Source: a virus. Taken from it: 34,793 nt of DNA. The notes under the pieces were generated by a model that saw only the letters and a list, made by a program, of their open reading frames with translations, had not been told where the DNA came from and did no database searches. The stretch lies in IMG/VR virus record IMGVR_UViG_3300010396_000077, positions 1 to 34,793 of that record; one strand, 5' to 3'. Positions 16,369-32,159 of the stretch are shown here, in pieces. Both the position numbers and the translations under genes were made by a program. Each line of letters opens with the position of its first letter. The first letter of the stretch is position 1.

Positions 16369-17471
16369 ACGGGAACGGTGAAGTTAGAGAGGGTGAGCTG
16401 GGCGGGAACGCTGAGGTTCGAGAAATGCCAGCGTTCCACCTTGCCATCAGTGACCGGGGGAGAGCTGTCGGCATCGTTGGCGGCGCTGGCGTTTTCAATC
16501 TGCCCGCTCGAAAAGCCGTTGTCGTTGGGGTTCACCTGCGCCGGGCGGAGTTTCACCGTGCCGTTCAGGTACTGCGCTTCGACGTACGCGTCGAAAATGT
16601 GCCAGGTCTCCGGGATGTATCCGGAATTCGGATCACCCACGTGCACGGTGCCTCCGGAGTAAAGCAACTGGAAGGTGACCGCGAGGGTCGAAAAGTCGGT
16701 ATTCGAAGGAAGCGGAGTGTCGGCCGATATCAATCCCGTGCTGGTGTTGGCGCTAGCGCCTCCGGTTGCAGTGCACGAGCAGTCTGGCGAACCGTGAAGG
16801 GTGTTGTCCTGATTGTTTGGGGTGAGGCTTGCCCAGATGACGAGCTTTGCCGTTAGGGGGTTGCCGATCGGCAGGCTTCCTCCTGAGCGGACTCCGTAGA
16901 GGAGGACCTTCTTCACTTCGAAGAAGTTCTGACTGAATTCTTCGAAGTCGATGGAGTCTTCGCCAAATCGGACCCGCCAGTAATAGCTGAAGGTCGCGGT
17001 GATGACCAGGCCATTGCCCGGCGCACCTGAGAAAGTGATGAGCCCCGCCAGATCGATCGAATAAGCGGTGGTGACTACGCCATCGATTTTGATGTTAGTG
17101 ATGGCTTGAACGTCAAAGACAGGTTCGAAGAATCCGCCCAGCGTCCGCCCGATCTGAAACTGCGTGGCGAGTCCGTCGCCGATGCCGATTTCGGTATCTA
17201 CCGCGGAGCCGTCGTAGGGATCTTGAAACAGGAAGGTGTCGAACTGGCCGCCGTGCGCGTTGTAGAAACCCAGCAAAGTTTGCAAACTGGAGCGCGCGTC
17301 GATCCAGGACAGGAAGTCGTAGGGGATCTCCCACTTGTAGAGCGGGAACTGATAGTTCGCGGTGCGAACTTCCCGGCCGCTCTGCGACGTCTGGACGATC
17401 GTCGAGAACAGGGGGGAGCGGACAACCGGGTAGGAGATCCCGATAAGGGAGGGGTAGATATCGTCGGACAC
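16365..17471 (-). CDS. DUF2460 distal tail protein with C-terminal extension (368 aa)
   Basis: Residues 1-205 match DUF2460, a distal-tail (Dit-like) protein: YPVVRSPLFSTIVQTSQSGRE, YKWEIPYDFL, FYNAHGGQFDTFLFQDPYD, then ITFSGAPGNGLVITATFSYYWRVRF. The usual family member stops soon after this. Here about 165 more residues follow, forming a beta-rich domain with TFQLLYSGGTVHVGDPNSG and ETWHIFDAYVEAQYLNGTVKL, perhaps a galectin- or carbohydrate-binding-like decoration. Start is GTG, 12 bases after the tape-measure stop, without a Shine-Dalgarno sequence. The next gene overlaps in ATGA. Confidence 0.85.
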   Translation of the reverse strand: MSDDIYPSLIGISYPVVRSPLFSTIVQTSQSGREVRTANYQFPLYKWEIPYDFLSWIDARSSLQTLLGFYNAHGGQFDTFLFQDPYDGSAVDTEIGIGDGLATQFQIGRTLGGFFEPVFDVQAITNIKIDGVVTTAYSIDLAGLITFSGAPGNGLVITATFSYYWRVRFGEDSIDFEEFSQNFFEVKKVLLYGVRSGGSLPIGNPLTAKLVIWASLTPNNQDNTLHGSPDCSCTATGGASANTSTGLISADTPLPSNTDFSTLAVTFQLLYSGGTVHVGDPNSGYIPETWHIFDAYVEAQYLNGTVKLRPAQVNPNDNGFSSGQIENASAANDADSSPPVTDGKVERWHFSNLSVPAQLTLSNFTVPV

Positions 17472-17483
17472 GAGGAGGAAGTT

Positions 17484-20400
17484 TTAGAGGCGGCCCTTGC
17501 GTACGGCTTTCTGCAGCGTGCTCACGATGTGGCCCTGGTGGTCATCCCAGAACTTCTTGTCGACCAGGCCGCCATTCATGTGCAGGCTCACGTGCGTGCT
17601 GTTCGATCCTCCGCCAGCGAGCGCGGGCGTTCCCACACCACCGAGCAGGTTCTGAAAGCCGCGCGAGAGCGATGCCGGGAGCACCATTTCGTTCTTGTGG
17701 ACGAAGGCGAGCTGCTCATCCTCGGCCACCATGCCTCCTGCGGCCGACGCAATTGCCGGAGCCGCGGCCGCCGCCTGCAGGGACATGACAGAGGCGAAAG
17801 CCTCCGCCGCCATTGCTGCTGCTAACGGTGGGAATTCCGCGTACGCGGCGTATGCGCGCGCTGCAGCAACCCCGGCCTGGCCGGTCACCTCGCCGGCGTT
17901 CTCCGCGGCATCCGTGATACCGCGCGTAGCATTTGCGGCCACATCCACGGCTGTTATAGCGGCTTGTGTGCCAGTCGCTACGGCAACCTGCGCCGCTCCC
18001 ATTGCGGTGTCGGACGTGACGATCGCCGCGTTCGTGGCGGTATGTTTTGTAGCTCGAACCGTTTCAGCCGTTGTATCGACGGCCGCATTTTGGATGTGGA
18101 AGATCTTGCGGATGGCCGCCATCACCAGGTGCTGGACGATCCACTTCTGCACCATGGCCTCAATGGAGCGTAGAGTATCGAGCAGAATGCCTCGCCACGA
18201 TTCCGCCATCGCTGCGGCAAAGCTCTTCTGGCCCGTGATCCAACTGTTGAAGCCCTGAAATACCGACGATGTAACCGAGGTAGCCCACTGCTTGGCGGCC
18301 TGAATCCGCTCGGCAATCTGCTGCTGGTACATCTGAGTGACGGCGAGCTCGTGGGTCTGCTCCAGCTTCAGAAGCTGCTGGGTGAGCCGAGCGACCTGCT
18401 CCGGACTCTGGGTCGGGTCGAGGCTGGCCAGTTGAATCCGGCGCACCATTCCCTGGTACTCGATTTGAAATTTCTCGTTTTCGAGCGCCTGTAACTGGCG
18501 TAGTTCTTCGGCCTTTGAAATCTGCCCTGTTTGCGCCAGGAACTCGATCTGCTTTTTGCGTTCCGCGAAGTTGTGGTCTTCGACGCTCTTCTCGATCTCC
18601 GCGCCGATCTGGGCCAGCTTGCCGCGCTCGGTCTGCCATTCGCGGGTGGCCTCGATCATCTTTTTCAACTGGCCCTGATACTCGGTGGTGTTCTGTAGCC
18701 CGAGCCGTTGCATGGCGAGCAGCACGTCGCGCTCGGCGTTCACGCGCTCTTCGGAACCCTTGCGCGTGGCAGCGACTTTCTGCTCTTCGCTCGCGATTAC
18801 GAGCTTGGCCTGTTGCTCCTGGAATTCGCGGGTGACGGTGACGAGCTGGGACTGGAGGCGCTTGTACTCCTCGGTCTGATCGGCCCCGATTGCTTTCGCG
18901 TGTGCCAGAAACTCCTGCAGGATGACGACGCGTTCGAGTGAGCCGGCGCGCTCGGCTTTCAGCTTATCTTCGACGCCTTTGGCTTCGTCGGTGAAGGATT
19001 GCTTCTGCGCCTGGCGCTCCGCGTCGCGGGCCAGGTGGTAGACCTGGGCGTACAGCTCGGCGCTATCCTTCGCGATGGCGAGCTTGTCTCTCCAGTACGA
19101 GGCCTCTTCGGCTTTGCTGATGTTGTGGAAGCCGTCCTCTGCGTCGCGGAATTGCTGGAGCTCCTGTTGCCAGTCCCGGAGGCGGGTGTCTTTGCCTTCT
19201 TTGTCGCCGCCGAAGTCTTTCTTTTTCGCTTCCGGAAGCTCGGGAGGTTTGTCGAAAAGGCTGTGGAATTCTCCGGATAGAGCCTTCCAATTGCCGGCAA
19301 TTTCCTTGCCCCCGTCCTTAAAGACGTTTACGAGATTCGTCTTCACCCGCGCTGCATCTGCCGTGAGTGCCGACCAGTTACCGGTCACAGCATCTTTCAC
19401 TAGAATCGCGAGGTCCTTCACCCCGACGAGCACGGAAGCTATTGCGGTACCTAGAGCCTCGAAAACCGTGGTGCCGATTGTCGCGAGGCCTTCGAAGCCT
19501 AGCCACACGGCTTTTAGCGAAGTGATCAGAACCGGCAGAGCTTCAAGTGCGATGGAACGCAGGGCCTCTTTCAGATATGCCATATCCCGCGTCCACTCTG
19601 CGGCGGCTTCGCTGGCCTTTTTCGTAACGCCGGAATGTTCGGCCGCTTTGCGTGTGAGTTCCTCAAGGTTCCCTCCCGCATCAGCCAACACCGCCGCGAG
19701 ATTGGCGTATCCTTTCGCGAAGATCTCGCGACCAGCACCGGCCACTTGGAAGCTATCACCGTTTTCCTTGACGCCGGCCGCGAGCTTAAAGAAAATCTCT
19801 TCTGGCTTGAGAGAATGAAGATCCTCGACCGTGACCCCGAGACGCTTAAACGCGAGAATCATTGCGGCACTGCCATCCGTGGCCTTCAGCACCGACGCTT
19901 CCATCTTTATAAGGCCCTGGGAAAAAGGTTCAAACGATGCCCCGGTTTGTTCCGTAACGGCGCGCAACCCGGCCAATATTTCAATCGGCAGGCGTGTTTT
20001 CGCAGCGAGATGATCTAATTCCACCTCGCCCTTCACTATTTCATCGATGAAGTGAGTGAAGAAGCCGATCACGATCCCGGCGCCCAGCAGCTTGCTGATA
20101 CCGGAAAATCCCGCTGCCATGCCGGCGCCACCCAGGTTTGCCGCTTCTGCCCCCTCCACGAACGAGGCGCTCATTTCGGCCATGGATTCGCGGATGGATA
20201 GGGAGGCCTCTTTCGCCCCCAGGGCCTCGCGGGTAAAGGCGCCCACTTCCGCGGTTGTGGCCGCGTCTGCGGTAGCCGCAGTTCCGAGGAGGGCTTCCGT
20301 GGCGGCCTTCTGCGCAGCCGCCATCTCCGCGGAAGCCGTAGTCGCCTGCTGCTGCGCCAATGCGAGCTTCGCGATGGCGGCGCCTTCATCATCGGTCGCC

Positions 20401-24655: not shown

Positions 24656-25360
24656 TTATCCCCTCGTCTGCGCCATATCGAGCACGCGCGTCGACCAGAG
24701 CAGCATCTTGACGCTCTCGGGAACTTTTGCCCCTTCATCCCGGTCCCACAGCTTGATGAGAATCCGCATCGCGACTTTCACCACTGCGGGAACTTTCGAG
24801 GCGTCATCTCCGTATCCCGCGACGAAATGGATCGCCACTGCGTTCGGCACGTAGAGCACCGGCGGCCAGAACTGCCCGGAATTCGGAAATAGGCGCGGCG
24901 GCTCGGCCGCGGTGTCAATCACAAACTGCCCGACCTGGCTATCAGGAGTCCCCGGAAGCAAGTCGTGATCCTGGCCATCGGTCCCGACATAGGTGATCTT
25001 CGAAACCGAAACGAGCGGCGAGTAGAACAGCTTGATCATCTGCGAGTAGTTCCACAGAGTCGTCGAGTACCGGGGCAGCGAGTAATAAGCCGGCGGATAG
25101 GCCTGCTGGCTCATGGCCGTATCCGTGAAATACGGAAACGCGTCGAGATACTGGACGTAGCCCTTGTTGATGAAACTCCGGCGGGTGAAACTCTCGCAGT
25201 ACTCCCGCGCCGCCTGAATCAGACCACGCAACCGTGACGCCTGCAGCGACGACGTGACGTGATCGGAATCCTCCCACGGGCCCAGGCGCAGTTGCCGCTT
25301 CACTTCCGCGAGCGAGAGCGGCTCCACGAGGGGCTGGGTTTCGACGATGATGGAGGACAT
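24656..25360 (-). CDS. phiE125 gp8-like head-tail adaptor (234 aa)
   Basis: Starts with PLVEPLSLAEVKRQLRLG, the family pattern for this adaptor, followed by SRLRGLIQAAREYCESFTRRSF and, near the end, AIHFVAGYGDDASKVPAVVKVAMRILIKLWD. Contains an insert with Tyr/Pro-rich sequence (residues 75-105). It forms part of the connector below the portal. It directly precedes the second connector, ending one base before that gene's ATG, and follows the zinc-ribbon gene of the glycan cassette by one base. Confidence 0.8.
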   Translation of the reverse strand: MSSIIVETQPLVEPLSLAEVKRQLRLGPWEDSDHVTSSLQASRLRGLIQAAREYCESFTRRSFINKGYVQYLDAFPYFTDTAMSQQAYPPAYYSLPRYSTTLWNYSQMIKLFYSPLVSVSKITYVGTDGQDHDLLPGTPDSQVGQFVIDTAAEPPRLFPNSGQFWPPVLYVPNAVAIHFVAGYGDDASKVPAVVKVAMRILIKLWDRDEGAKVPESVKMLLWSTRVLDMAQTRG

Positions 25361-25591
25361 TTACCGGGTTTCGCGCAGGCGAGATTTGATCGAGGCTTCA
25401 GGATGTTTCTTGATCTGGGCGAGTGGGTCCTGCTTTTCAAGCAGCTCGCGAATCTTACCCAGCTCATCGAGCAGCGGCCGATTGGCCTCGACGAGCATCT
25501 CTTTCAGCCAGGGAGCATGGAGTGATTGGCCTGCGCATGCGTGAAATACGCCCGGCGTGATCTTCCCCCCGCATTGTTCGCACGTCGTCAT
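25361..25591 (-). CDS. Small zinc-ribbon/helix protein (76 aa)
   Basis: GGAG lies before the ATG at 25591, which overlaps the stop of the glycosyltransferase upstream (ATGA). C4, C7, H17 and C19 (CEQC...HAC) form a zinc-ribbon-like site. A helix follows (LKEMLVEANRPLLDELGKIRELLEK). It closes the glycan cassette and abuts the connector gene. No function known; it could be an accessory of the cassette or an independent phage gene. Confidence 0.6.
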   Translation of the reverse strand: MTTCEQCGGKITPGVFHACAGQSLHAPWLKEMLVEANRPLLDELGKIRELLEKQDPLAQIKKHPEASIKSRLRETR

Positions 25592-26298
25592 AGAGTCTCC
25601 AGTTGCAGCGGCCCGGCCCATTTCAACTTCGCGTCCGCCGGGACTTCGGGGATATCGCCCTGCACGATGTGCCGGTAGTGGTCTTCTCTATCCAGGTCCG
25701 GGCTCGTGTCTTTCGCGTTGTACCAGGCGTACTTGCGCAGCCGGTCCGCGGGGTCCATATAGCCCAGGTGTAGAAGCGAAACGTCCAGCAGCTTGCCCTT
25801 TTTGCCGCTCAGCCCCGCCGGTACGTTGCCGCAGTGGAAGTTGGGAGCGCATGCCCCGACGAACTTACAGCCGTCCTGGAAACGGAAAAGCGACGGACGA
25901 TAAAACTCTCTGTACACTCCGTCCACCCGGACGCTCTGGCGGCTGTTCCACAGGTACCGAACGCGAAAGCAATAGTACGCATCGGAGTCGTTGACGGCCT
26001 CGCGAATATTAGGCACGCCCGATGCCTCCAGCAGCTCGTCGCCATCGATCGCGAGCAACCACTGCGCCCCACGCTGGCGGGCGCGATCCAGCAGGAAGTT
26101 CTTGTCCCGCGCTTCATCAAGGCCCTCGAACCCGGACGAGAGGACCGTGGCGCCCAGGGATGCGCAGATGTCAGGCGTTCCGTCGTCGCTGTGATCGTCA
26201 AATACCACGATTTCTTCGCAGGCCGGCTGTATAGCCTGCAAGACTTCCGCGATCCAGCGGGCTTCGTTCTTCACCCGCAACATCCCGACGATCTTCAT
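25588..26298 (-). CDS. Family 2-type glycosyltransferase (236 aa)
   Basis: ATG at 26298 overlaps the previous stop by one base (TGATG); a TTG at 26301 is also possible. KIVGMLRVKNEARWIAEVL, VVFDDHSDDGTPDIC (residues 31-44) and IDGDELLE (DGDE, about 85-88) are the nucleotide-sugar and metal-binding motifs of GT-A fold GT2 enzymes. It would transfer a sugar from a nucleotide-sugar in the cytoplasm. It has no membrane helices, so the acceptor is probably a soluble protein or a precursor. It is the last catalytic gene of the cassette. Confidence 0.85.
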   Translation of the reverse strand: MKIVGMLRVKNEARWIAEVLQAIQPACEEIVVFDDHSDDGTPDICASLGATVLSSGFEGLDEARDKNFLLDRARQRGAQWLLAIDGDELLEASGVPNIREAVNDSDAYYCFRVRYLWNSRQSVRVDGVYREFYRPSLFRFQDGCKFVGACAPNFHCGNVPAGLSGKKGKLLDVSLLHLGYMDPADRLRKYAWYNAKDTSPDLDREDHYRHIVQGDIPEVPADAKLKWAGPLQLETL

Positions 26299-27059
26299 CA
26301 ATAATCCGGATATGTAACTTTGGAACCGGTGAGCTCGGCCAGTTTTTGCAGGCGTTCCCGAATCTGGTGGCGCTCGGGCTGGAATTCTTTGTTGCTGGCC
26401 CGGTCCTTCCAGGCCGCGTGCCAGAAGAAGTCGAGATAGGGCGACGCATAGATATCGGCGTCGATGGTCCTCACGTCCATCCCTTCATTTCGCCTTGCCA
26501 CCGGAAACGAGAGTTGGTCCCGTTCGCAGCCCGCGGAAAACAGGCGCCACCAGTGTTCGTTCAGCGCCGCGGTGGCTGCGTTATGCCGGCGGACGATGAA
26601 GCCGTTGGCCCAGAGTCCCGCCTTCTCGGGGTACCCGATCAGCCGATACGTCTCAATTTCACGTTCGACCAGCTCCGTCGTCCCGATTTTCTGATCCAGC
26701 AGAACCTTGGCTTCGTCGTAGATGCAGCGCCGGCAGGGATGCCGATGCGCTGCCCAATCCTGGTAAGGGAGCAGGCTATCGATCAGCTTTACCGGGTCTA
26801 CCTTCAGCCGGAGGCTGCCATCGTGATAGATCGAATACTCGGCATCCGCCGGCAGCATCAGATGCGGCAGAATCTTGGGGACCCGTGCGGTCCGGCAGAC
26901 TTCCCCGGCCAGATGAACCGGCATGTATTCCCACGGCTCGACCTTGGGAAGCACCGGCACGTCCGTGAAGCAGATGAACCGAACGCCAGGAATACTGCCA
27001 CACGCCGGCGGCCGCAGATTGTCCCACCCGTTCAGGATGGACGTGTAGACGTAGATCAC
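26298..27059 (-). CDS. DUF616-type glycosyltransferase-like protein (253 aa)
   Basis: Starts with GTG overlapping the previous stop (GTGA). IYVYTSILNGWDNL, VRFICFTDVP, a KILPHLMLP helix, YSIYHDGSLRLK and WAAHRHPCRRCIYDEAKVLLD are the order of motifs of DUF616 proteins, which are glycosyltransferases of GT-A fold (plant TOD1/MUCI70 group and bacterial relatives). The YHDGS replaces a DxD-like site. Later segments with GLWANGFIVRRHN and DQLSFPVA complete the fold. The family is common in capsule and O-antigen clusters. Confidence 0.8.
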   Translation of the reverse strand: MIYVYTSILNGWDNLRPPACGSIPGVRFICFTDVPVLPKVEPWEYMPVHLAGEVCRTARVPKILPHLMLPADAEYSIYHDGSLRLKVDPVKLIDSLLPYQDWAAHRHPCRRCIYDEAKVLLDQKIGTTELVEREIETYRLIGYPEKAGLWANGFIVRRHNAATAALNEHWWRLFSAGCERDQLSFPVARRNEGMDVRTIDADIYASPYLDFFWHAAWKDRASNKEFQPERHQIRERLQKLAELTGSKVTYPDY

Positions 27060-27709
27060 GGAGCGAACGCCCGTCTCAGGCCGCGCTTATAGTGCAGGAT
27101 GCGGGCCTCAGGTGGTGCGGGGAATTGCCAGCAGTTCCACTCGGGTGAAGAGAGAATCTGAATCCGATAGCCTGGATATTCAACGATCACTCCGCGCGCC
27201 GCGGCCCATTGAAAGCGGTCCCAGCCCTTTCCGACTACGTCATTCAGTGCTGTCTGGTCCCCGGTGGTTCGGCTACAAGCATCAAGCCAATCGTCGAGAA
27301 AGTCGAAACCTGGACGAGTCCAGCGCACGAAAACGACTCCGCTGTTCAGCCAGTCCGTGGCCGGAATTCCTGATGCGCCCAGCTCAGTATCAGAACGGAG
27401 CGTGACAGCGGCATCCCAATCGCCCGGCGGTTCGATTGGCAAAACAGGGACGCAGTCGCCGTCTAACCATGCGACCAAGTCCCCTGACTGTACCCACTGA
27501 TCGAGCATCAGTTTTGGCTTGAACCGCGCCGCTGGCAAACCGCCGCCGAGAGTCGCGGCGAATTCGGCTGGGTCCACAAACGTCTTGCGGCCCATCCCGA
27601 GGCCGCCCAGGTCGTGAATCTCGTGCGTGTAGCCCTGCGTTTTACAGAACGTCGCCTGCCGCTCGATGTAGGGCCGGTATTCGGCGGTCCCGCCAGTGAC
27701 GATCAGCAT
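27056..27709 (-). CDS. Glycosyltransferase-like protein with DGD motif (217 aa)
   Basis: LVAWLDGDCVPVLP (DGD at residues 83-85), TDWLNSGVVFVRW (about 119-130), GDQTALNDVV and a final ILHYKRG are the motif order of GT8/GT34-like or nucleotide-diphosphosugar transferases with retaining activity. It is soluble. The ATG overlaps the end of the PIG-L deacetylase gene by 7 bases and its stop overlaps the DUF616 gene in GTGA. The exact family cannot be chosen by eye. Confidence 0.75.
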   Translation of the reverse strand: MLIVTGGTAEYRPYIERQATFCKTQGYTHEIHDLGGLGMGRKTFVDPAEFAATLGGGLPAARFKPKLMLDQWVQSGDLVAWLDGDCVPVLPIEPPGDWDAAVTLRSDTELGASGIPATDWLNSGVVFVRWTRPGFDFLDDWLDACSRTTGDQTALNDVVGKGWDRFQWAAARGVIVEYPGYRIQILSSPEWNCWQFPAPPEARILHYKRGLRRAFAP

Positions 27710-28275
27710 CGGTAGATGCCCGCGATTTCTCTCACTCCAAAACTCCAGGTCCAGCAGCCATAACGGTCGTAGATTGCCTTACAGCGCTCCACAAGGGCTG
27801 GGGCTGGGGGTAGGCAGCACTCTTCCTCGGATTCGCCGCTCATGACGCAATTCGGCATCGGGAACCAGGCTGCTTCCGGATGCGCGATGCTGGAGCAAAA
27901 CACATGAGACAGATTCCCAACCGCGATCTGATGCACCAGGATGTGATCCAGATGCCCGTACTCGCCCCACGGGTTGTGAGTGAATACCGGCCCGTCCCCG
28001 CAAGCGCCGATCAGCTCGTCGGCCAGCTTCTTCAGTGCACCCGCGCGATGGTCCATCCGGAAGAATTCGGAATTGTAGTCGAAGCACACGACTTCAATTC
28101 CCAGCATTTTGCCCACTTCCGCCAAGGCTTCGCCTCTCCGCGCGCACCACTGCCGCGCCGGGTTGTGAGAGTCGTTCGAGGCGCAGACGATGCGTTTCGC
28201 CCGGGCTAGAACCGGCCAGCCGAAGATGATCTCGTCATCGGGATGAGCGATGAGCAGCGTAATGCCGTCTAACAG
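27703..28275 (-). CDS. PIG-L/LmbE family N-deacetylase (190 aa)
   Basis: AHPDDE (residues 10-15 from the chosen start) is the metal-binding hallmark of PIG-L deacetylases, with GEYGHLDH supplying later ligands. These zinc enzymes remove N-acetyl groups from sugars such as GlcNAc. The start is odd: no ATG, GTG or TTG exists between the upstream frame and the AHPDDE motif in a sensible place. A CTG at 28275 with AAGGA 7 bases upstream is the best candidate; it overlaps the preceding gene by 41 bases. In the cassette it could free an amino sugar for the methyltransferase or a transferase. Confidence 0.8.
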   Translation of the reverse strand: MLDGITLLIAHPDDEIIFGWPVLARAKRIVCASNDSHNPARQWCARRGEALAEVGKMLGIEVVCFDYNSEFFRMDHRAGALKKLADELIGACGDGPVFTHNPWGEYGHLDHILVHQIAVGNLSHVFCSSIAHPEAAWFPMPNCVMSGESEEECCLPPAPALVERCKAIYDRYGCWTWSFGVREIAGIYRC

Positions 28276-28876
28276 ATTCGTGTCCTTCGTGCAAAATGAT
28301 TTCGTTCCCGCATCCGATGTCCTTCTCGCACACGCACCATTGCGGTGGAAGCAGGCAGGGATAAAGCCCGAACTTGTAAATCGCGCGCCACCAGGCGAGC
28401 GGACCTCGCACCGGTTGAGCTTCCATCTCGCGGAGGAAGGCCCGAGCCAAGGCCATTGAGCCAAGATCGCCGTGCTGCAGCGCCATGACTGCACAGTTCA
28501 GCGCATAGCCGGTGCCGTTGGTTTCATCGAGTTGACCGTCCGAATCCGCACCGATCTGCGTATCGACGCGTACCAGCCACCGGGAGTTGCTCGGCAGGCA
28601 GATCCCAAAGCGTTCGACCAGCGGAATGATGGTCCGCACGTCATCCGAAACGATCCGCATGTCGCCGTCGAGCGCGATCACGATGTCGGCTTCGGACTCG
28701 ACCATTGCCCGCACTTTCCAGTAGTCGTTCATCCGCCACCCCCAGCGCGGATGATCGGGAAAGCTGAAGGCGTCCGCTCTGGCGTGCCGGACCGTGGCCT
28801 CGGGAAAGTATTTGCGTACGTTCGTCTCGTCGGGTCGTTGCTTCCCGAACTCAGCGAAGACGATCTCGATACTCAC
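28235..28876 (-). CDS. Glycosyltransferase-like protein with DGD motif (213 aa)
   Basis: GTG start in a GTGA overlap with the preceding gene. The N-terminus IEIVFAEFGKQRPDETNVRKYFPEA, then WRMNDYWKVRAMVESEADIVIALDGDMRIV (DGD at residues 70-72) and NGTGYALNCAVMAL, follow the GT-A layout where the second Asp cluster binds metal and the later Asn-containing loop the acceptor. The last residues run over the start of the PIG-L gene and may not be conserved. The exact family is uncertain. Confidence 0.7.
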   Translation of the reverse strand: MSIEIVFAEFGKQRPDETNVRKYFPEATVRHARADAFSFPDHPRWGWRMNDYWKVRAMVESEADIVIALDGDMRIVSDDVRTIIPLVERFGICLPSNSRWLVRVDTQIGADSDGQLDETNGTGYALNCAVMALQHGDLGSMALARAFLREMEAQPVRGPLAWWRAIYKFGLYPCLLPPQWCVCEKDIGCGNEIILHEGHESVRRHYAAHRSSR

Positions 28877-29592
28877 GCCGGGTGTCCAAACTTCTCTTCA
28901 AACAGGGCCAGGTTTCGATGCGACGTTGCCGGCCGTGATGGATCGCCGCGGAACGTGCTCTTCAGCTTTCCGTGGTCCACGTAACAGCCGTCGAAGATCC
29001 CGAGCTTCAATCCGGCCCGGCGCACGGATTCGCAGTAGTCGTTGTCCTCGACGCCGTAATCGAGACAATACCGTTCGTCGAGCAGGCCCACGCGGTCGAT
29101 CGTCGCCCGCGGGATGTAGACGCAGACGAAGGCCAGGGTGCGCGGCTCTTCCCGGAGTCCAGTTCCGGCCTGGGGACGCTGTGCCAGGTTGCCCACGACG
29201 TTCGTCACCGCCGAGATCACGCCGAACTCGGGATGCGCCGCGGCCGCAGCCGCAAGCAACGTAAAGCCGCGTGTTGTTTCGAGTAGCGCATCATCGTTCA
29301 GCAGGATCACGTCGTCTTGGCAAGAAGCGCGGATGCCGATATTGGCGTTGCGGGCGAAGATAAAGGGCTTGGCTCCGGATTGACACTGCATCCTCCGCAA
29401 GACTTCCGAGATTCTATCCTGACGATCCGGATATTCCCAATCGCTGGGAAAACCCAGGTCACCAGAGTTCTCCCACTGAATGCCGTCATCGATGACATGG
29501 ATCGTGCATTCCTTCTCAGCCAATAAAACGTGCTTCACGCACGGAATCACGTTTTCCACTTTCCTGCTGAGGACGACGACCGAGAAACTCAC
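28873..29592 (-). CDS. Family 2 glycosyltransferase, rhamnosyltransferase-like (239 aa)
   Basis: The GTG at 29592 overlaps the methyltransferase stop in GTGA; a longer open frame upstream is antisense-like and rejected. SFSVVVLSRKVENVIPCVKHVL, TIHVIDDG, NANIGIR (residues 83-89), VILLNDDALLE (96-105) and GVEDNDYCESVRRAG are the classic motif order of GT2 enzymes that resemble rhamnosyltransferases: NDD for metal and ED-D as catalytic region. It is soluble. Confidence 0.85.
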   Translation of the reverse strand: MSFSVVVLSRKVENVIPCVKHVLLAEKECTIHVIDDGIQWENSGDLGFPSDWEYPDRQDRISEVLRRMQCQSGAKPFIFARNANIGIRASCQDDVILLNDDALLETTRGFTLLAAAAAAHPEFGVISAVTNVVGNLAQRPQAGTGLREEPRTLAFVCVYIPRATIDRVGLLDERYCLDYGVEDNDYCESVRRAGLKLGIFDGCYVDHGKLKSTFRGDPSRPATSHRNLALFEEKFGHPA

Positions 29593-30053
29593 GGCTTCTC
29601 CAACACAATCGTTAACTTCGGCACGTTGACAATCGTCCCGAACACGCCGCCGGGGTAGTCCTTCTCTTCGTGCCGCACGTAGCGGAATGCCGCAGTGATG
29701 CCGTTGGCCTTGTGAAACCGCTCGCGGTGCGCATCTCCCGCCACGTAGTACTGGAAGCTGCTGAGATTCCAGTAGCTGATGTGTTGAGGGTCCTGCCAGG
29801 CGCCGGCACCGTTTGTCGTCGGTACGCAAATCTCGATGCGACCGCCGGATTTGAGCACACGGTACGCCTCGTTCATGGTCCGAACCTTGTCTGGCAGGTG
29901 CTCGATGATCTCGTGGGCCCGGATCATCTCCACGCTGTCGTCCGGCCACGGCCACGGCTGATTCAGATTAGCGATCTGATCCGCCGGCGGACAGATATCC
30001 ACGTTCACGTAGCCGGCCCGGAGATCGTTCGAGCAGCCGAGGTTTAGATTCAT
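29589..30053 (-). CDS. SAM-dependent methyltransferase, class I (154 aa)
   Basis: LNLGCS (residues 3-8; motif I as LxxGCG-like), NVDICPP (motif II), IRAHEIIEHLPD (about 44-55) and AYRVLKSGGRIEICVP (63-78) give a small class I methyltransferase of the type found in glycan clusters. It would methylate a sugar or a phosphate acceptor; some such phage enzymes act on other small substrates. The ATG overlaps the previous stop (ATGA), tying it to the cassette. At 154 residues it is on the short side but complete in its motifs. Confidence 0.85.
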   Translation of the reverse strand: MNLNLGCSNDLRAGYVNVDICPPADQIANLNQPWPWPDDSVEMIRAHEIIEHLPDKVRTMNEAYRVLKSGGRIEICVPTTNGAGAWQDPQHISYWNLSSFQYYVAGDAHRERFHKANGITAAFRYVRHEEKDYPGGVFGTIVNVPKLTIVLEKP

Positions 30054-30736
30054 TGGATGGCTTCAAAAAACGCAGCGGGAAATTCGCTTCGCGGAACTTC
30101 TGGCCAGGAGTTGTGGCCCAGCCGCCCGCTCGATGACGTGTTGTCTCCGTGCACTCGCGCGATCAGCAGGTTGCGGCTTTCCTCTGAAGAAACGCCGCCG
30201 AATCTCTGGCCCGCGGCTTCCATGTAGCCGTCCTCGCCCATGTGCACGTCCGGGAAGGGATGCGCTTTCCAGAACTCGCGCCAGTAACACATGGAGGCGC
30301 CGCACACCGTTTCGAGGGTGCCGTCCGAATGGCGCATCGATGGCGGGCTTGAAACCTTCCACCGGTAGCCCTTGCTCGCCTCTTCATGCCAGAAAAGCAG
30401 CTCGCGATAGCCGGTCACTGGCCTTCGGGAATCGACCATCCGCGCGACCTGGTCCGCGATTCGTTCAGGAGCCGACCAGTCGTCGGAATCAAAATGCACG
30501 ATCACTTCGCCCTTCGCTGCTTCACAGAGGGCGTTGCGCTTCAGCCCCAGATCCAAACGAGGGACGCGCAGGTAAATCACGCCGGGATCCGTTGGCGCCG
30601 TGTAAAACGACGGATCGTCCTTGTCGTCCAGAATCACAAGCTGCCGAGGCTCGTAGGTCTGGCGCAGAAAACACTGCAGCGCGACGCGAGACAGCGCGGG
30701 CCGGGAGCGCGTCGGCATGATGGCGGAAACGAGCAT
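30050..30736 (-). CDS. Family 2 glycosyltransferase (228 aa)
   Basis: First gene of the glycan cassette. The ATG at 30736 gives MLVSAIMPTRSRPALSRVAL, a usual GT2 start; the frame upstream runs through the terminator and MCP end and is not coding. LVILDDKDDPSF, LKRNALCEAAKGEVIVHFDSDDW (DSDD at 83-86) and ETVCGASMCYWREFW, GEDGYM later, are the donor and acceptor motifs. No Shine-Dalgarno sequence precedes it; instead there are three CCCCCT-TTTT tracts. It follows the capsid terminator, so its expression depends on read-through. Confidence 0.85.
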   Translation of the reverse strand: MLVSAIMPTRSRPALSRVALQCFLRQTYEPRQLVILDDKDDPSFYTAPTDPGVIYLRVPRLDLGLKRNALCEAAKGEVIVHFDSDDWSAPERIADQVARMVDSRRPVTGYRELLFWHEEASKGYRWKVSSPPSMRHSDGTLETVCGASMCYWREFWKAHPFPDVHMGEDGYMEAAGQRFGGVSSEESRNLLIARVHGDNTSSSGRLGHNSWPEVPRSEFPAAFFEAIQ

Positions 30737-30768
30737 AGGGGGAAAACAGGGGGAAAACAGGGGGAAAA
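30736..30768 (-). repeat. Tandem CCCCCTGTTTT tract before the cassette
   Basis: Read leftward, CCCCCTGTTTT occurs in tandem (with a first unit CTTTTCCCCCT) directly before the ATG at 30736. It also supplies the T-rich tail of the terminator. Such a simple repeat may vary in length during replication. Confidence 0.6.
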
Positions 30769-30801
30769 GAGGGGGAGGGGAAATGGCGGGTCCTCCCCCT
30801 C
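30765..30801 (-). terminator. Terminator after the major capsid gene
   Basis: Read leftward: GAGGGGGAGG (30801-30792 complement) pairs with CCTCCCCCTC (30778-30769 complement) over 10 base pairs with a 13-base loop, followed by TTTT and later TGTTTT. It lies 18 bases after the capsid stop. A terminator after the capsid gene is common in phages and gives excess capsid mRNA. Confidence 0.75.
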
Positions 30802-30818
30802 GGAGTGAAACAGCGTTA

Positions 30819-32159
30819 TTACGCGTGGTTCTGCAGGTAGCGGACCGGGTGAGTGCCGGCGTCCAGCAGGTTGCCGTCGTAACGAGCGAACCCGAGGAAC
30901 GCGACCTGCCCGAAGTCGGCAAAACGCTCGACAAGGCGCAGGATCGACATCTCCTTCACGCGCCGGATCAGGTACTTGTCCATCTGGCCGAACAGCACCG
31001 ATTTGTTGCCGGCGCCGAGCTGCGCCATGTCGTTATTGATCCAATATTTGTAGCCGAGGATCGTGTCCGGCTTGCCCACCGCCATGCCCGGCATCCACAG
31101 AGGATGGCCGAACTTGTCTTTCAGGGTTTTGATGAAGCGGAGGGTGCCATCGTGCATCATGTAGCTCGCGCCCATGCGGTACAGGATGTCGAGCGAGTGC
31201 TCCAAATTCACCAGATCGATATAGCCGACCTGCTGAGTCGGATCCGGCGTGGTCTGGTTGTCGTCGCCGATGATGCTGGGCGTGGTGCCAGAGGTTACGC
31301 CGGCGCTGGATTGCGGAACGATGCCCGAGGGTTCGGGAGCAGCCACGAGTGGGGAGCCGGCCTGGTTGGACGGTCCACCACCGACGGTGAACTTGGTGTT
31401 CGAAATGCGGCCCAGGCGGATGCCGAACTTCTTGATCAGCCACGATTCGATGTCGAACGCCGAATCCTGCAGCAGCTCGATCGACACCTTCACCATCTTG
31501 GTGCTGAATTTGTAAGCCGAGAAGTTGATCTGGCTGATGGTGACATCCTGCGTGGTGACTTGCGCGCCCTCGCCGACGATTTCGCCGCTGATCGCGGTGT
31601 CGTTATCGGTCGGGAAGGGAAGGGGCTGGCCGGTTGCGGTGTCGAACACGTCAGAGCTGTTCCACATCGGCCCGTAGTACTTCAGGGCCTCTTCGATCTT
31701 GTTGGTGAACCCAACCGGAACGAAGAACCCGGTGGTCGAGCCGGGATAGGCGCCGCCCGTAGGGATACCCTCGCTCATGTCGCGCTTTTCCATCTGCAGC
31801 ATGACCTGGCGGGCCTGCATCAGCTCCCGCTCTTCAGGATTGAGGCCGCGGAAACCGTAGTTGTCCGGGAACAGGCCGTTCTTCAGATAGTTGTTGAAGG
31901 CGCGCTGGACCTTCTCGGCCTTCTTTGCGGGATCGTTGTTCGGATCGCCGATCTGATTCTCCGGAGGCCGCTGCGTCCCGCGCATTTCGAGCTCCAGCGC
32001 GGCCGAGCGCTCGATGGCTTCGATCTGCGTTTTCAGCCCTTCTTGCTCCGTGTCGAGGGCGTCAAACTTCACTTTGTTTTCGGGCGTCAAATTGTTAGCG
32101 AGTTCCGCCATGTCATGGGCGCATTTTCCACGGCGCTCGCGCATTTCCTTAACGGTCAT
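30819..32159 (-). CDS. HK97-family major capsid protein (446 aa)
   Basis: AAGGAG precedes the ATG by 9 bases. Residues 1-90 form the helical N-terminal scaffold (delta) region (ENKVKFDALDTEQEGLKTQIEAIERSAALELEMR), cut off by the prohead protease in relatives. Capsid fold from about residue 140: STTGFFVPVGFTNKIEEALKYYG, ISGEIVGEGAQVTTQDVTISQINFSAYKFSTKMVKVSIELLQDSAFDIESWLIKKFG, then GASYMMHDGTLRFIKTLKDKFGHPLW and GQMDKYLIRRVKEMSILRLVERFADFGQVAFLGFARYDG. The gene precedes a terminator and the glycan cassette, so the capsid is the nearest candidate substrate. A 250-280 loop (Pro/Ser/Thr-rich) may be surface exposed. Confidence 0.93.
   Translation of the reverse strand: MTVKEMRERRGKCAHDMAELANNLTPENKVKFDALDTEQEGLKTQIEAIERSAALELEMRGTQRPPENQIGDPNNDPAKKAEKVQRAFNNYLKNGLFPDNYGFRGLNPEERELMQARQVMLQMEKRDMSEGIPTGGAYPGSTTGFFVPVGFTNKIEEALKYYGPMWNSSDVFDTATGQPLPFPTDNDTAISGEIVGEGAQVTTQDVTISQINFSAYKFSTKMVKVSIELLQDSAFDIESWLIKKFGIRLGRISNTKFTVGGGPSNQAGSPLVAAPEPSGIVPQSSAGVTSGTTPSIIGDDNQTTPDPTQQVGYIDLVNLEHSLDILYRMGASYMMHDGTLRFIKTLKDKFGHPLWMPGMAVGKPDTILGYKYWINNDMAQLGAGNKSVLFGQMDKYLIRRVKEMSILRLVERFADFGQVAFLGFARYDGNLLDAGTHPVRYLQNHA

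Follow-up and report, generated by a model that had tools for sequence, protein, structure and literature searches.

A predicted glycan-modifying gene cassette in the head operon of an IMG/VR phage and its link to bacterial contractile injection systems

Mycobacteriophages use enzymes of their own to glycosylate their capsid and tail tube proteins, as described for Che8 gp110, Corndog gp38 and Myrna (Freeman et al. 2023, as reported in PMC12363180). For gp41 of the Cellulophaga phage phi18:1 the function was left open, with DNA-base glycosylation as one listed option (PMC11946311). Here we describe eight overlapping genes (25588-30736, minus strand) located between the major capsid gene and the first head-tail adaptor of a phage. 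The analysed stretch (the window, 34,793 nucleotides) is a linear virus record from IMG/VR that ends inside the portal gene. When we searched 50,697 GenBank phage records with tblastn at 1e-5, GT2_A, GT2_B, DGD1 and PIG-L (Table 1) had no match. For TOD1, MT and GT2_C no mycobacteriophage was among the tblastn matches in the GenBank phage records.

Gene content and boundaries of the cassette

The initial annotation had described an overlapping run of nine genes between the capsid gene and the adaptor. The run itself, tightly overlapping and on one strand, is borne out by the measured junctions and the phrog matches. We observed overlaps of 4 nt for GT2_A/MT, MT/GT2_B and GT2_B/DGD1, 41 nt for DGD1/PIG-L, 7 nt for PIG-L/DGD2, 4 nt for DGD2/TOD1, 1 nt (TGATG) for TOD1/GT2_C, 4 nt for GT2_C/ZnR and 0 nt for ZnR/Ad1. 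The structural genes next to the cassette show overlaps of the same kind, and hence these are no special mark of it. The number of genes has to be lowered to eight: homologues of the zinc-ribbon gene stand immediately upstream of the adaptor in L012 and L053-L060, and in L012 no cassette separates capsid and adaptor. As ZnR is kept beside the adaptor even in this relative, we assign it to the adaptor module and not to the cargo. It had also been assumed that structural genes normally lie side by side at this place. This is only partly true, since the slot carries cargo in many relatives, including large unknown proteins (L016, L020, L027) and a GIY-YIG nuclease (L009).

Table 1. Features of the slot and its boundaries, listed from the capsid gene to the adaptor
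Feature	Position	Strand	Evidence and remarks
Major capsid protein	30819..32159	-	phrog_10 E=7e-54; upstream boundary of the slot
Post-capsid gap	30737..30818	-	GC-rich hairpin then T/C tract; probable attenuator; MFE -21.6 kcal/mol, z -3.07
GT2_A, family 2 glycosyltransferase, cassette gene 1	30050..30736	-	PF00535 4.6e-11; conserved FDSDD/ED residues
MT, class I SAM-dependent methyltransferase	29589..30053	-	PF08241 1.9e-7
GT2_B, GT-A fold glycosyltransferase, GTG start	28873..29592	-	Orthologue profile matches and predicted fold
DGD1, probable GT-A glycosyltransferase, ALDGDM motif	28235..28876	-	Motifs and low-confidence GT-A-like fold
PIG-L/LmbE-type N-deacetylase	27703..28275	-	PF02585 4e-8, above cut-off; HPDDE and HNPWGEYGHLDH metal-site motifs
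DGD2, nucleotide-diphospho-sugar transferase	27056..27709	-	PF03407 2.4e-7
TOD1/MUCI70 (DUF616) glycosyltransferase	26298..27059	-	PF04765 1e-16
GT2_C, family 2 glycosyltransferase, last cassette gene	25588..26298	-	PF13704 2.7e-8, PF00535 1.1e-7
Zinc-ribbon protein (ZnR)	25361..25591	-	Adaptor module, not cassette; homologues directly upstream of adaptor in relatives
Ad1, head-tail adaptor	24656..25360	-	phrog_442 3.4e-10, also phrog_40; downstream boundary of the slot

Hairpins 3' of the capsid gene also occur in relatives, both with and without a cassette. A pattern scan did not pick up the post-capsid hairpin, and a scan for sigma-70 promoters returned nothing exceeding chance.

We ran the cassette proteins against Pfam to check the enzyme calls. 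Matches were obtained for GT2_A, MT, PIG-L, DGD2, TOD1 and GT2_C, and none for GT2_B and DGD1 of the window; the matches of GT2_A, GT2_C, TOD1 and DGD2 exceed the cut-off. The methyltransferase and the PIG-L deacetylase are upheld by PF08241 and PF02585. For five of the six proposed glycosyltransferases the call is backed by profile matches of the window protein or of its orthologues; the sixth, DGD1, was assigned by its motifs and a low-confidence GT-A-like fold. For GT2_B the orthologues match PF02709, PF13641 and PF00535. The top folds for its AlphaFold2 model (pLDDT 86.7) were chondroitin polymerase, WrtF and the polypeptide GalNAc-transferases, the latter with TM 0.70-0.72. DGD1 had no Pfam match in the window protein or in two orthologues. 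Its model (pLDDT 62) gave weak matches to GT-A enzymes, the best being VIA with Z 8.4, and we dropped the attempt to name a family from the fold, as Z ≤8.4 and a pLDDT of 62 are too weak for this. PIG-L accompanies DGD1 in every locus where DGD1 was seen. The metal-site motifs of PIG-L (HPDDE, distal His) are kept in three orthologues, and its start is most likely the CTG at 28275, which stands behind GAAGGA and aligns with the start of one orthologue. With the GT2_A profile the best matches were chondroitin and heparosan synthases, and GmaR, a flagellin glycosyltransferase, was also among the matches.

No transmembrane segment was predicted in any of the cassette proteins (maximum KD19 1.35). 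The initial annotation had stated that the phage lacks genes for sugar-nucleotide synthesis and a flippase. We recognised none among the genes examined in this linear record, which ends inside the portal gene.

Recurrence in phages and in eCIS operons

A look for the cassette at the same place in related phages had been suggested, and its core does recur in IMG/VR. There are 48 loci homologous to GT2_A and 223 homologues of GT2_B, and the recurring order is GT2_A, methyltransferase, GT2_B, a variable middle and GT2_C. Among 75 distinct GT2_B loci, which were mostly retrieved by glycosyltransferase sequence and not by genomic position, GT2_A lies at most 4 kb upstream in 58 and GT2_C downstream in 47. 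A head or adaptor gene is found on the same strand in 60 of these 75 loci, and the remaining 15 show no structural marker. Where a complete set from GT2_A to GT2_C is followed by an adaptor, the gap between GT2_C and Ad1 is below 400 bp in all cases (16/16). GT2_B is 41-57% identical to that of the window, and the order and both ends are conserved despite this divergence. Homologues of TOD1 that are 71% identical lie next to distant adaptor genes (L098, L210). Dozens of unrelated phages hold the core in this slot, and cassette genes are exchanged between phages with unrelated heads (mosaic exchange). A single-sequence scan of IMG/VR with DGD2 gave no match although orthologues are present in L099 and L100, so scans of this kind overlook relatives.

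The same core is linked to extracellular contractile injection systems (eCIS) of bacteria. In a Terriglobia MAG (L102) the GT2_A, MT, GT2_B and GT2_C domains stand in the same order at the end of an eCIS operon with sheath, tube, CIS tube, gp25, baseplate J, AAA and eCIS_core genes. In L140 these four domains follow an eCIS_core gene with an overlap of 1 nt, and sheath and tube genes are located 23-27 kb away on the contig. Both arrays contain a GT2_A-MT fusion and L140 in addition a GT2_B-GT2_C fusion. They differ from the phage cassette in having fewer, fused genes, with no homologue of DUF616, DGD or PIG-L in these loci. Upstream of GT2_A we found eCIS_core genes in L101, L106 and L140, immediately so in the latter two. 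Cultured carriers of the eCIS-linked GT2_A type include Humibacillus xanthopallidus DSM 21776 and Geodermatophilus obscurus DSM 43161. Among 28 genomes that have a gp19-type tube gene, the best GT2_A homologue lay within 50 kb of this gene in 20, compared to 3 of 20 weaker GT2 homologues from the same genomes (p=1e-4); the test set comprised 36 genomes, some of them picked for eCIS hints, and 20/28 thus overstates the rate. We rejected the explanation that the chromosomal GT2_A homologues are prophage genes: in none of 80 loci did we recognise a gene for portal, capsid, terminase or adaptor. In the literature available to us we found no paper connecting eCIS with particle glycosylation.

For the host of the phage, a search with the portal profile in 84,980 GTDB species genomes found no relative. 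The Acidobacteriota MAGs with homologues (L102, L109) give no more than a hint. L109 holds the full array, yet there is no sheath or tube gene in the genome and no phage marker within 80 kb.

Probable target and alternative readings

We consider it probable that the genes are a cassette for virion glycosylation which sits in the late head operon and can be exchanged. Of the proposals in the initial annotation, that of a modified virion glycan has the best support, given the recurrence in head operons, the lack of predicted membrane segments and the eCIS linkage, and the host surface is weakened. We find no support for the capsid loop 250-280 as the suggested target: across the 19 capsid proteins that we aligned, neither its length nor its composition goes with the cassette, and many cassette-free relatives carry longer loops. 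The eCIS particles lack both a capsid and DNA. That they share the core favours proteins of tail-like particles over DNA or host-surface modification, and a tail, connector or fibre protein is more likely the target than the capsid shell because the GT2_A-MT-GT2_B-GT2_C set also accompanies contractile injection particles. We found no structural protein that co-varies with the cassette. The presence of GmaR among the GT2_A matches and the resemblance of the predicted GT2_B fold to polypeptide GalNAc-transferases may be added in support. However, chondroitin polymerase outscores both GmaR and the polypeptide GalNAc-transferases in the respective comparisons, and such folds, like the GmaR match, are common to carbohydrate-acting enzymes, which counts against the virion reading.

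The resemblance to chondroitin and heparosan synthases would suit a modification of the host surface, in which capsule or LPS is altered late in infection and superinfection or re-adsorption of the progeny is blocked. Polysaccharide clusters commonly contain GT2 and PIG-L enzymes. A glycosyltransferase beside a kinase in the portal-MCP interval of the 'Gratiaviridae' was read in this way (PMC8008677). We nevertheless regard this as unlikely: no membrane segments are predicted, the genes examined include no recognised flippase or lipid-carrier transferase, the position is fixed next to the adaptor, and the core also occurs in eCIS operons, where superinfection poses no problem. The position in the head operon and the sharing of the set with particles that carry no genome also make it very improbable that the enzymes decorate modified DNA bases against restriction, which is a role of glycosyltransferases in other phages and an option for phi18:1 gp41 (PMC11946311). 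We recognised no base-modifying gene in the window, in a scan that took in a minority of the small genes in 1-5 kb.

The eCIS linkage itself has a different possible meaning. Operons of eCIS often terminate in effector genes, and eCIS_core genes stand upstream of GT2_A in the three loci named above. One known eCIS-associated effector is a glycosyltransferase (PMC10598620). The eCIS-linked members could then be injected, and the phage members could be internal or ejected proteins acting on host targets. A conserved multi-enzyme set including a methyltransferase resembles a biosynthetic pathway, and the fusions link enzyme to enzyme with no delivery domain seen in them, so that we hold this to be very improbable. 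It is likewise improbable that the genes are mere passengers, i.e. selfish or neutral morons gathering at a permissive post-capsid site. That the slot also hosts the other cargo described above fits such an origin, whereas the conservation of order and ends over the wide divergence of GT2_B and the recurrence of this order in eCIS operons of bacteria do not.

What we show is the identity of the genes, their position, synteny and mosaic exchange, the eCIS linkage and the lack of predicted membrane segments; the catalysis, substrate, glycan structure and benefit of virion glycosylation are inferred. In this reading, transcription would pass the putative attenuating hairpin behind the capsid gene, and soluble enzymes would be produced in the cytoplasm, in catalytic quantities, during particle assembly. 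The GT2-type enzymes would attach a sugar to a particle protein and elongate it from the sugar nucleotides of the host. The DUF616 enzyme, the two DGD enzymes, PIG-L and the methyltransferase may then modify the glycan through branching, loss of an N-acetyl group and addition of a methyl cap. More tentatively, this may be an undescribed particle-glycosylation system common to tailed phages and to the contractile injection systems of bacteria, with a conserved core acting on tail-type proteins and a swappable middle that diversifies the glycan and is exchanged among unrelated phages in one genomic slot. If true, one enzyme set would tie phage virions to bacterial injection machines, and the glycan coating of particles would be no mycobacteriophage curiosity but a modular trait that is widespread among uncultured phages and was missed by isolate collections. 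One could then test why phages that have no animal host would coat themselves: to adhere to surfaces or to polysaccharide, to resist proteases, to select a receptor or to escape the bacterial sensors of phage proteins. The enzymes would also be new tools for in-cell protein glycosylation.

Comparison with described loci

The Cellulophaga phages phi12:1, phi17:1, phi18:1 and phi18:2 (KC821613 and relatives) also carry a TOD1/DUF616-type glycosyltransferase (29-30% identical) and a methyltransferase gene in the structural module. In contrast to our cassette these are two genes only, between minor capsid and protease, and GT2_A, GT2_B and GT2_C have no tblastn match there. Glycosyltransferase/methyltransferase clusters are found directly after the capsid gene in Podovirus ctKR88 (MW202524) and before the terminase gene in Caudovirales GX15bay (MK557849), but only MT (37%) and only GT2_C (29%), respectively, were detected as homologous to the cassette. 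The 'Gratiaviridae' locus is alike by position, with a glycosyltransferase in the head operon, and differs in being read as host-capsule modification (PMC8008677). Serotype-conversion (Gtr-type) loci have a membrane flippase and membrane-anchored glycosyltransferases, whereas the cassette proteins have no predicted membrane segment. Judged by its sequence, the cassette comprises phage-encoded glycosyltransferase families that are soluble by prediction and placed with structural genes. It is like mycobacteriophage virion glycosylation in that the glycosyltransferases are phage-encoded; there they act on virion proteins. Unlike in those systems, the set described here has eight enzymes and includes a deacetylase and a methyltransferase.

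Gene content and boundaries of the cassette

The IMG/VR virus record is linear (34,793 bases) and one of its ends falls within the portal gene. On the minus strand the portal, protease and major capsid protein genes are followed by the cassette, the zinc-ribbon gene, the adaptors and neck and then the tail genes. GC content is 0.59-0.62 in the cassette and its flanks alike, with no compositional break, and the GC3 of the cassette is somewhat below that of the capsid gene.

Genes of the cassette and the evidence for each assignment
Gene	Position	Strand	Evidence
Cassette, whole	25588-30736	minus	
GT2_A	30050-30736	minus	direct Pfam match
MT (methyltransferase)	29589-30053	minus	direct Pfam match
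GT2_B	28873-29592	minus	orthologues and confident GT-A model
DGD1	28235-28876	minus	ALDGDM motif and poor model with GT-A neighbours
PIG-L deacetylase	27703-28275	minus	direct Pfam match
DGD2	27056-27709	minus	direct Pfam match
TOD1/DUF616	26298-27059	minus	direct Pfam match
GT2_C	25588-26298	minus	direct Pfam match

The glycosyltransferase, methyltransferase and PIG-L calls of the initial annotation held directly for six genes. For GT2_B the orthologue matches and the predicted structure (pLDDT 86.7; closest structures chondroitin polymerase, WrtF and polypeptide GalNAc-transferases) support a GT-A glycosyltransferase, and for DGD1 the motif and the poor model tentatively suggest the same. 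The zinc-ribbon gene had been counted as a cassette member. We assign it to the adaptor module, because locus L012 has capsid, zinc ribbon and adaptor in direct succession with no other gene between them and loci L053-L060 retain the zinc ribbon immediately upstream of the adaptor. Gene overlaps, noted initially along the cassette, do exist, but the flanking structural genes overlap likewise.

No ATG, GTG or TTG was found close to the homologous start position of the PIG-L gene. A CTG at 28275 follows GAAGGA and aligns with the start of the orthologue in L100, a viral locus, and is the likely start codon, with GAAGGA as ribosome-binding site. The gap 3' of the capsid gene (gap at 30737-30818) contains a strong hairpin with a perfect 10-bp stem, followed by repeated TTTTCCCCC units that reach the start of GT2_A, where no Shine-Dalgarno sequence was found. 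Comparable hairpins occur at this position in relatives whether or not they carry a cassette, and thus the cassette is probably placed behind a general attenuator.

A recurrent core in an exchangeable slot

A search of IMG/VR with the GT2_B family gave 223 confirmed homologues, and the 80 best of them were retained; the following counts refer to the 75 distinct GT2_B loci among all fetched viral loci. GT2_A occurs at most 4 kb upstream of GT2_B in 58 of the 75, MT within 3 kb in 45 and GT2_C at most 8 kb downstream in 47; 60 loci have a same-strand head gene or adaptor. If both the head genes and the adaptor can be seen, the cassette is located between them in 18 loci and past the adaptor in 14. 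Sixteen complete GT2_A to GT2_C sets have the adaptor next, and in every one of them GT2_C ends less than 400 bp from it. TOD1 is found in the middle of 13 of the 40 complete sets, and DGD1, PIG-L and DGD2 are rare there. The complete eight-gene set was seen only in the window and L100 among the fetched loci; L099, cut at its end, matches the window set from MT onward. GT2_A, GT2_B, DGD1 and PIG-L gave no tblastn match at 1e-5 among 50,697 GenBank phage records, and therefore isolate collections have missed this cassette family.

A portal scan yielded 48 loci. Among relatives, the slot between capsid and adaptor holds just one to three small genes in L013, L014, L019, L024, L028-L030 and L034, a protein of 696-1,125 residues in the cassette-free relatives L016 (15804-19172), L020 (13660-15750) and L027 (12835-16212), with no Pfam match for those of L016 and L020, and different glycosylation cassettes in L053-L060. 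The set in L009/L055 and L058 comprises GT2_A, MT, a PIG-L gene (28% identical to that of the window in L009), more methyltransferases and weaker glycosyltransferase matches. Given these varied contents, the slot is a hotspot with glycan-modifying enzymes as recurrent content. The related cassette of L009 also contains a GIY-YIG/NUMOD3 homing-type endonuclease gene (16850-17560), which could drive cassette mobility.

L053, L055 and L058 are structural relatives of the window (portal 57-62%, adaptor 63-66% identical), yet their cassettes differ from that of the window and have no recognised GT2_B. Viral locus L210 shows the converse: its MT, TOD1 and GT2_B are 84%, 71% and 52% identical to those of the window, whereas portal and adaptor are only 29% and 25% identical. 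The DNA of its MT gene is 82% identical across 467 bp and that of the region around the TOD1/GT2_C junction 71% across 830 bp, and the structural genes gave no reportable match. Therefore cassette genes are exchanged between phages whose heads are unrelated, and they arrive in the same slot.

A counterpart in contractile injection systems

None of the 80 best bacterial GT2_A loci contained recognised phage head genes. The full GT2_A-MT-GT2_B-GT2_C array is present in the bacterial loci L102, L109 and L140 (domain E-values 1e-58 to 1e-96). In L102 it forms the end of an eCIS operon with sheath, two tube genes, CIS tube, gp25, baseplate J, AAA ATPase and eCIS_core protein. In L140 it lies directly behind an eCIS_core gene, overlapping it by 1 nt, and the same contig also contains sheath and tube genes 23-27 kb away. 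GT2_A and MT are fused in both L102 and L140, and GT2_B and GT2_C in L140; these fusions indicate that the enzymes work in one pathway. The best GT2_A homologue was at most 50 kb from a tube gene in 20 of 28 tube-bearing genomes, compared to 3 of 20 for weaker GT2 homologues, a contrast that is an upper estimate because the genome set is enriched for eCIS hints. A homology scan showed one or more CIS-type genes close to 27 of the 80 loci, in about eleven cases the ATPase alone.

GT2 glycosyltransferases homologous to GT2_A were observed at or near eCIS operon ends in several phyla (L102 / L310-L313, L140, L101, L103, L106, L132, L136 and others), some immediately behind the eCIS_core gene. The Acidobacteriota loci L109 (3053-14937) and L118 (3516-12868) share a protein of ∼1,095 residues with no Pfam match and also a gene that contains several GT2_A domains; neither phage nor sheath genes were found around L109.

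Proposed function and comparison with known systems

Particles of eCIS contain neither capsid nor DNA, and tail-type structures are common to phages and eCIS. The cassette enzymes are encoded within particle operons and have no predicted membrane segments. Cytoplasmic glycosylation of a particle protein would be the simplest function common to both sets, and we infer that the cassette performs it, with deacetylation and methylation tailoring the glycan. No acceptor protein was identified, and the capsid loop proposed initially as one possible target was not supported. GT2_A resembles GmaR and GT2_B has a GalNAc-transferase fold, but polysaccharide enzymes share these similarities and score as well or better.

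In GenBank phages, other glycosyltransferase/methyltransferase clusters lie beside the terminase gene of GX15bay (L293, MK557849; 13033-18156) and beside the capsid gene of ctKR88 (L314, MW202524; 1679-10510). Mycobacteriophages are an established case of virions glycosylated by phage enzymes (PMC12363180). In Cellulophaga phage isolates the head module encodes a DUF616-type enzyme together with a methyltransferase, the function of the former being left open (PMC11946311), and a head-operon glycosyltransferase of 'Gratiaviridae' was interpreted as modifying the host capsule (PMC8008677). We found no description of mosaic exchange or of an eCIS counterpart in the open-licence papers searched. 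What sets the cassette of the window apart from these cases is that its core comprises several enzymes, that it is exchanged in mosaic fashion and that it has a counterpart in eCIS.
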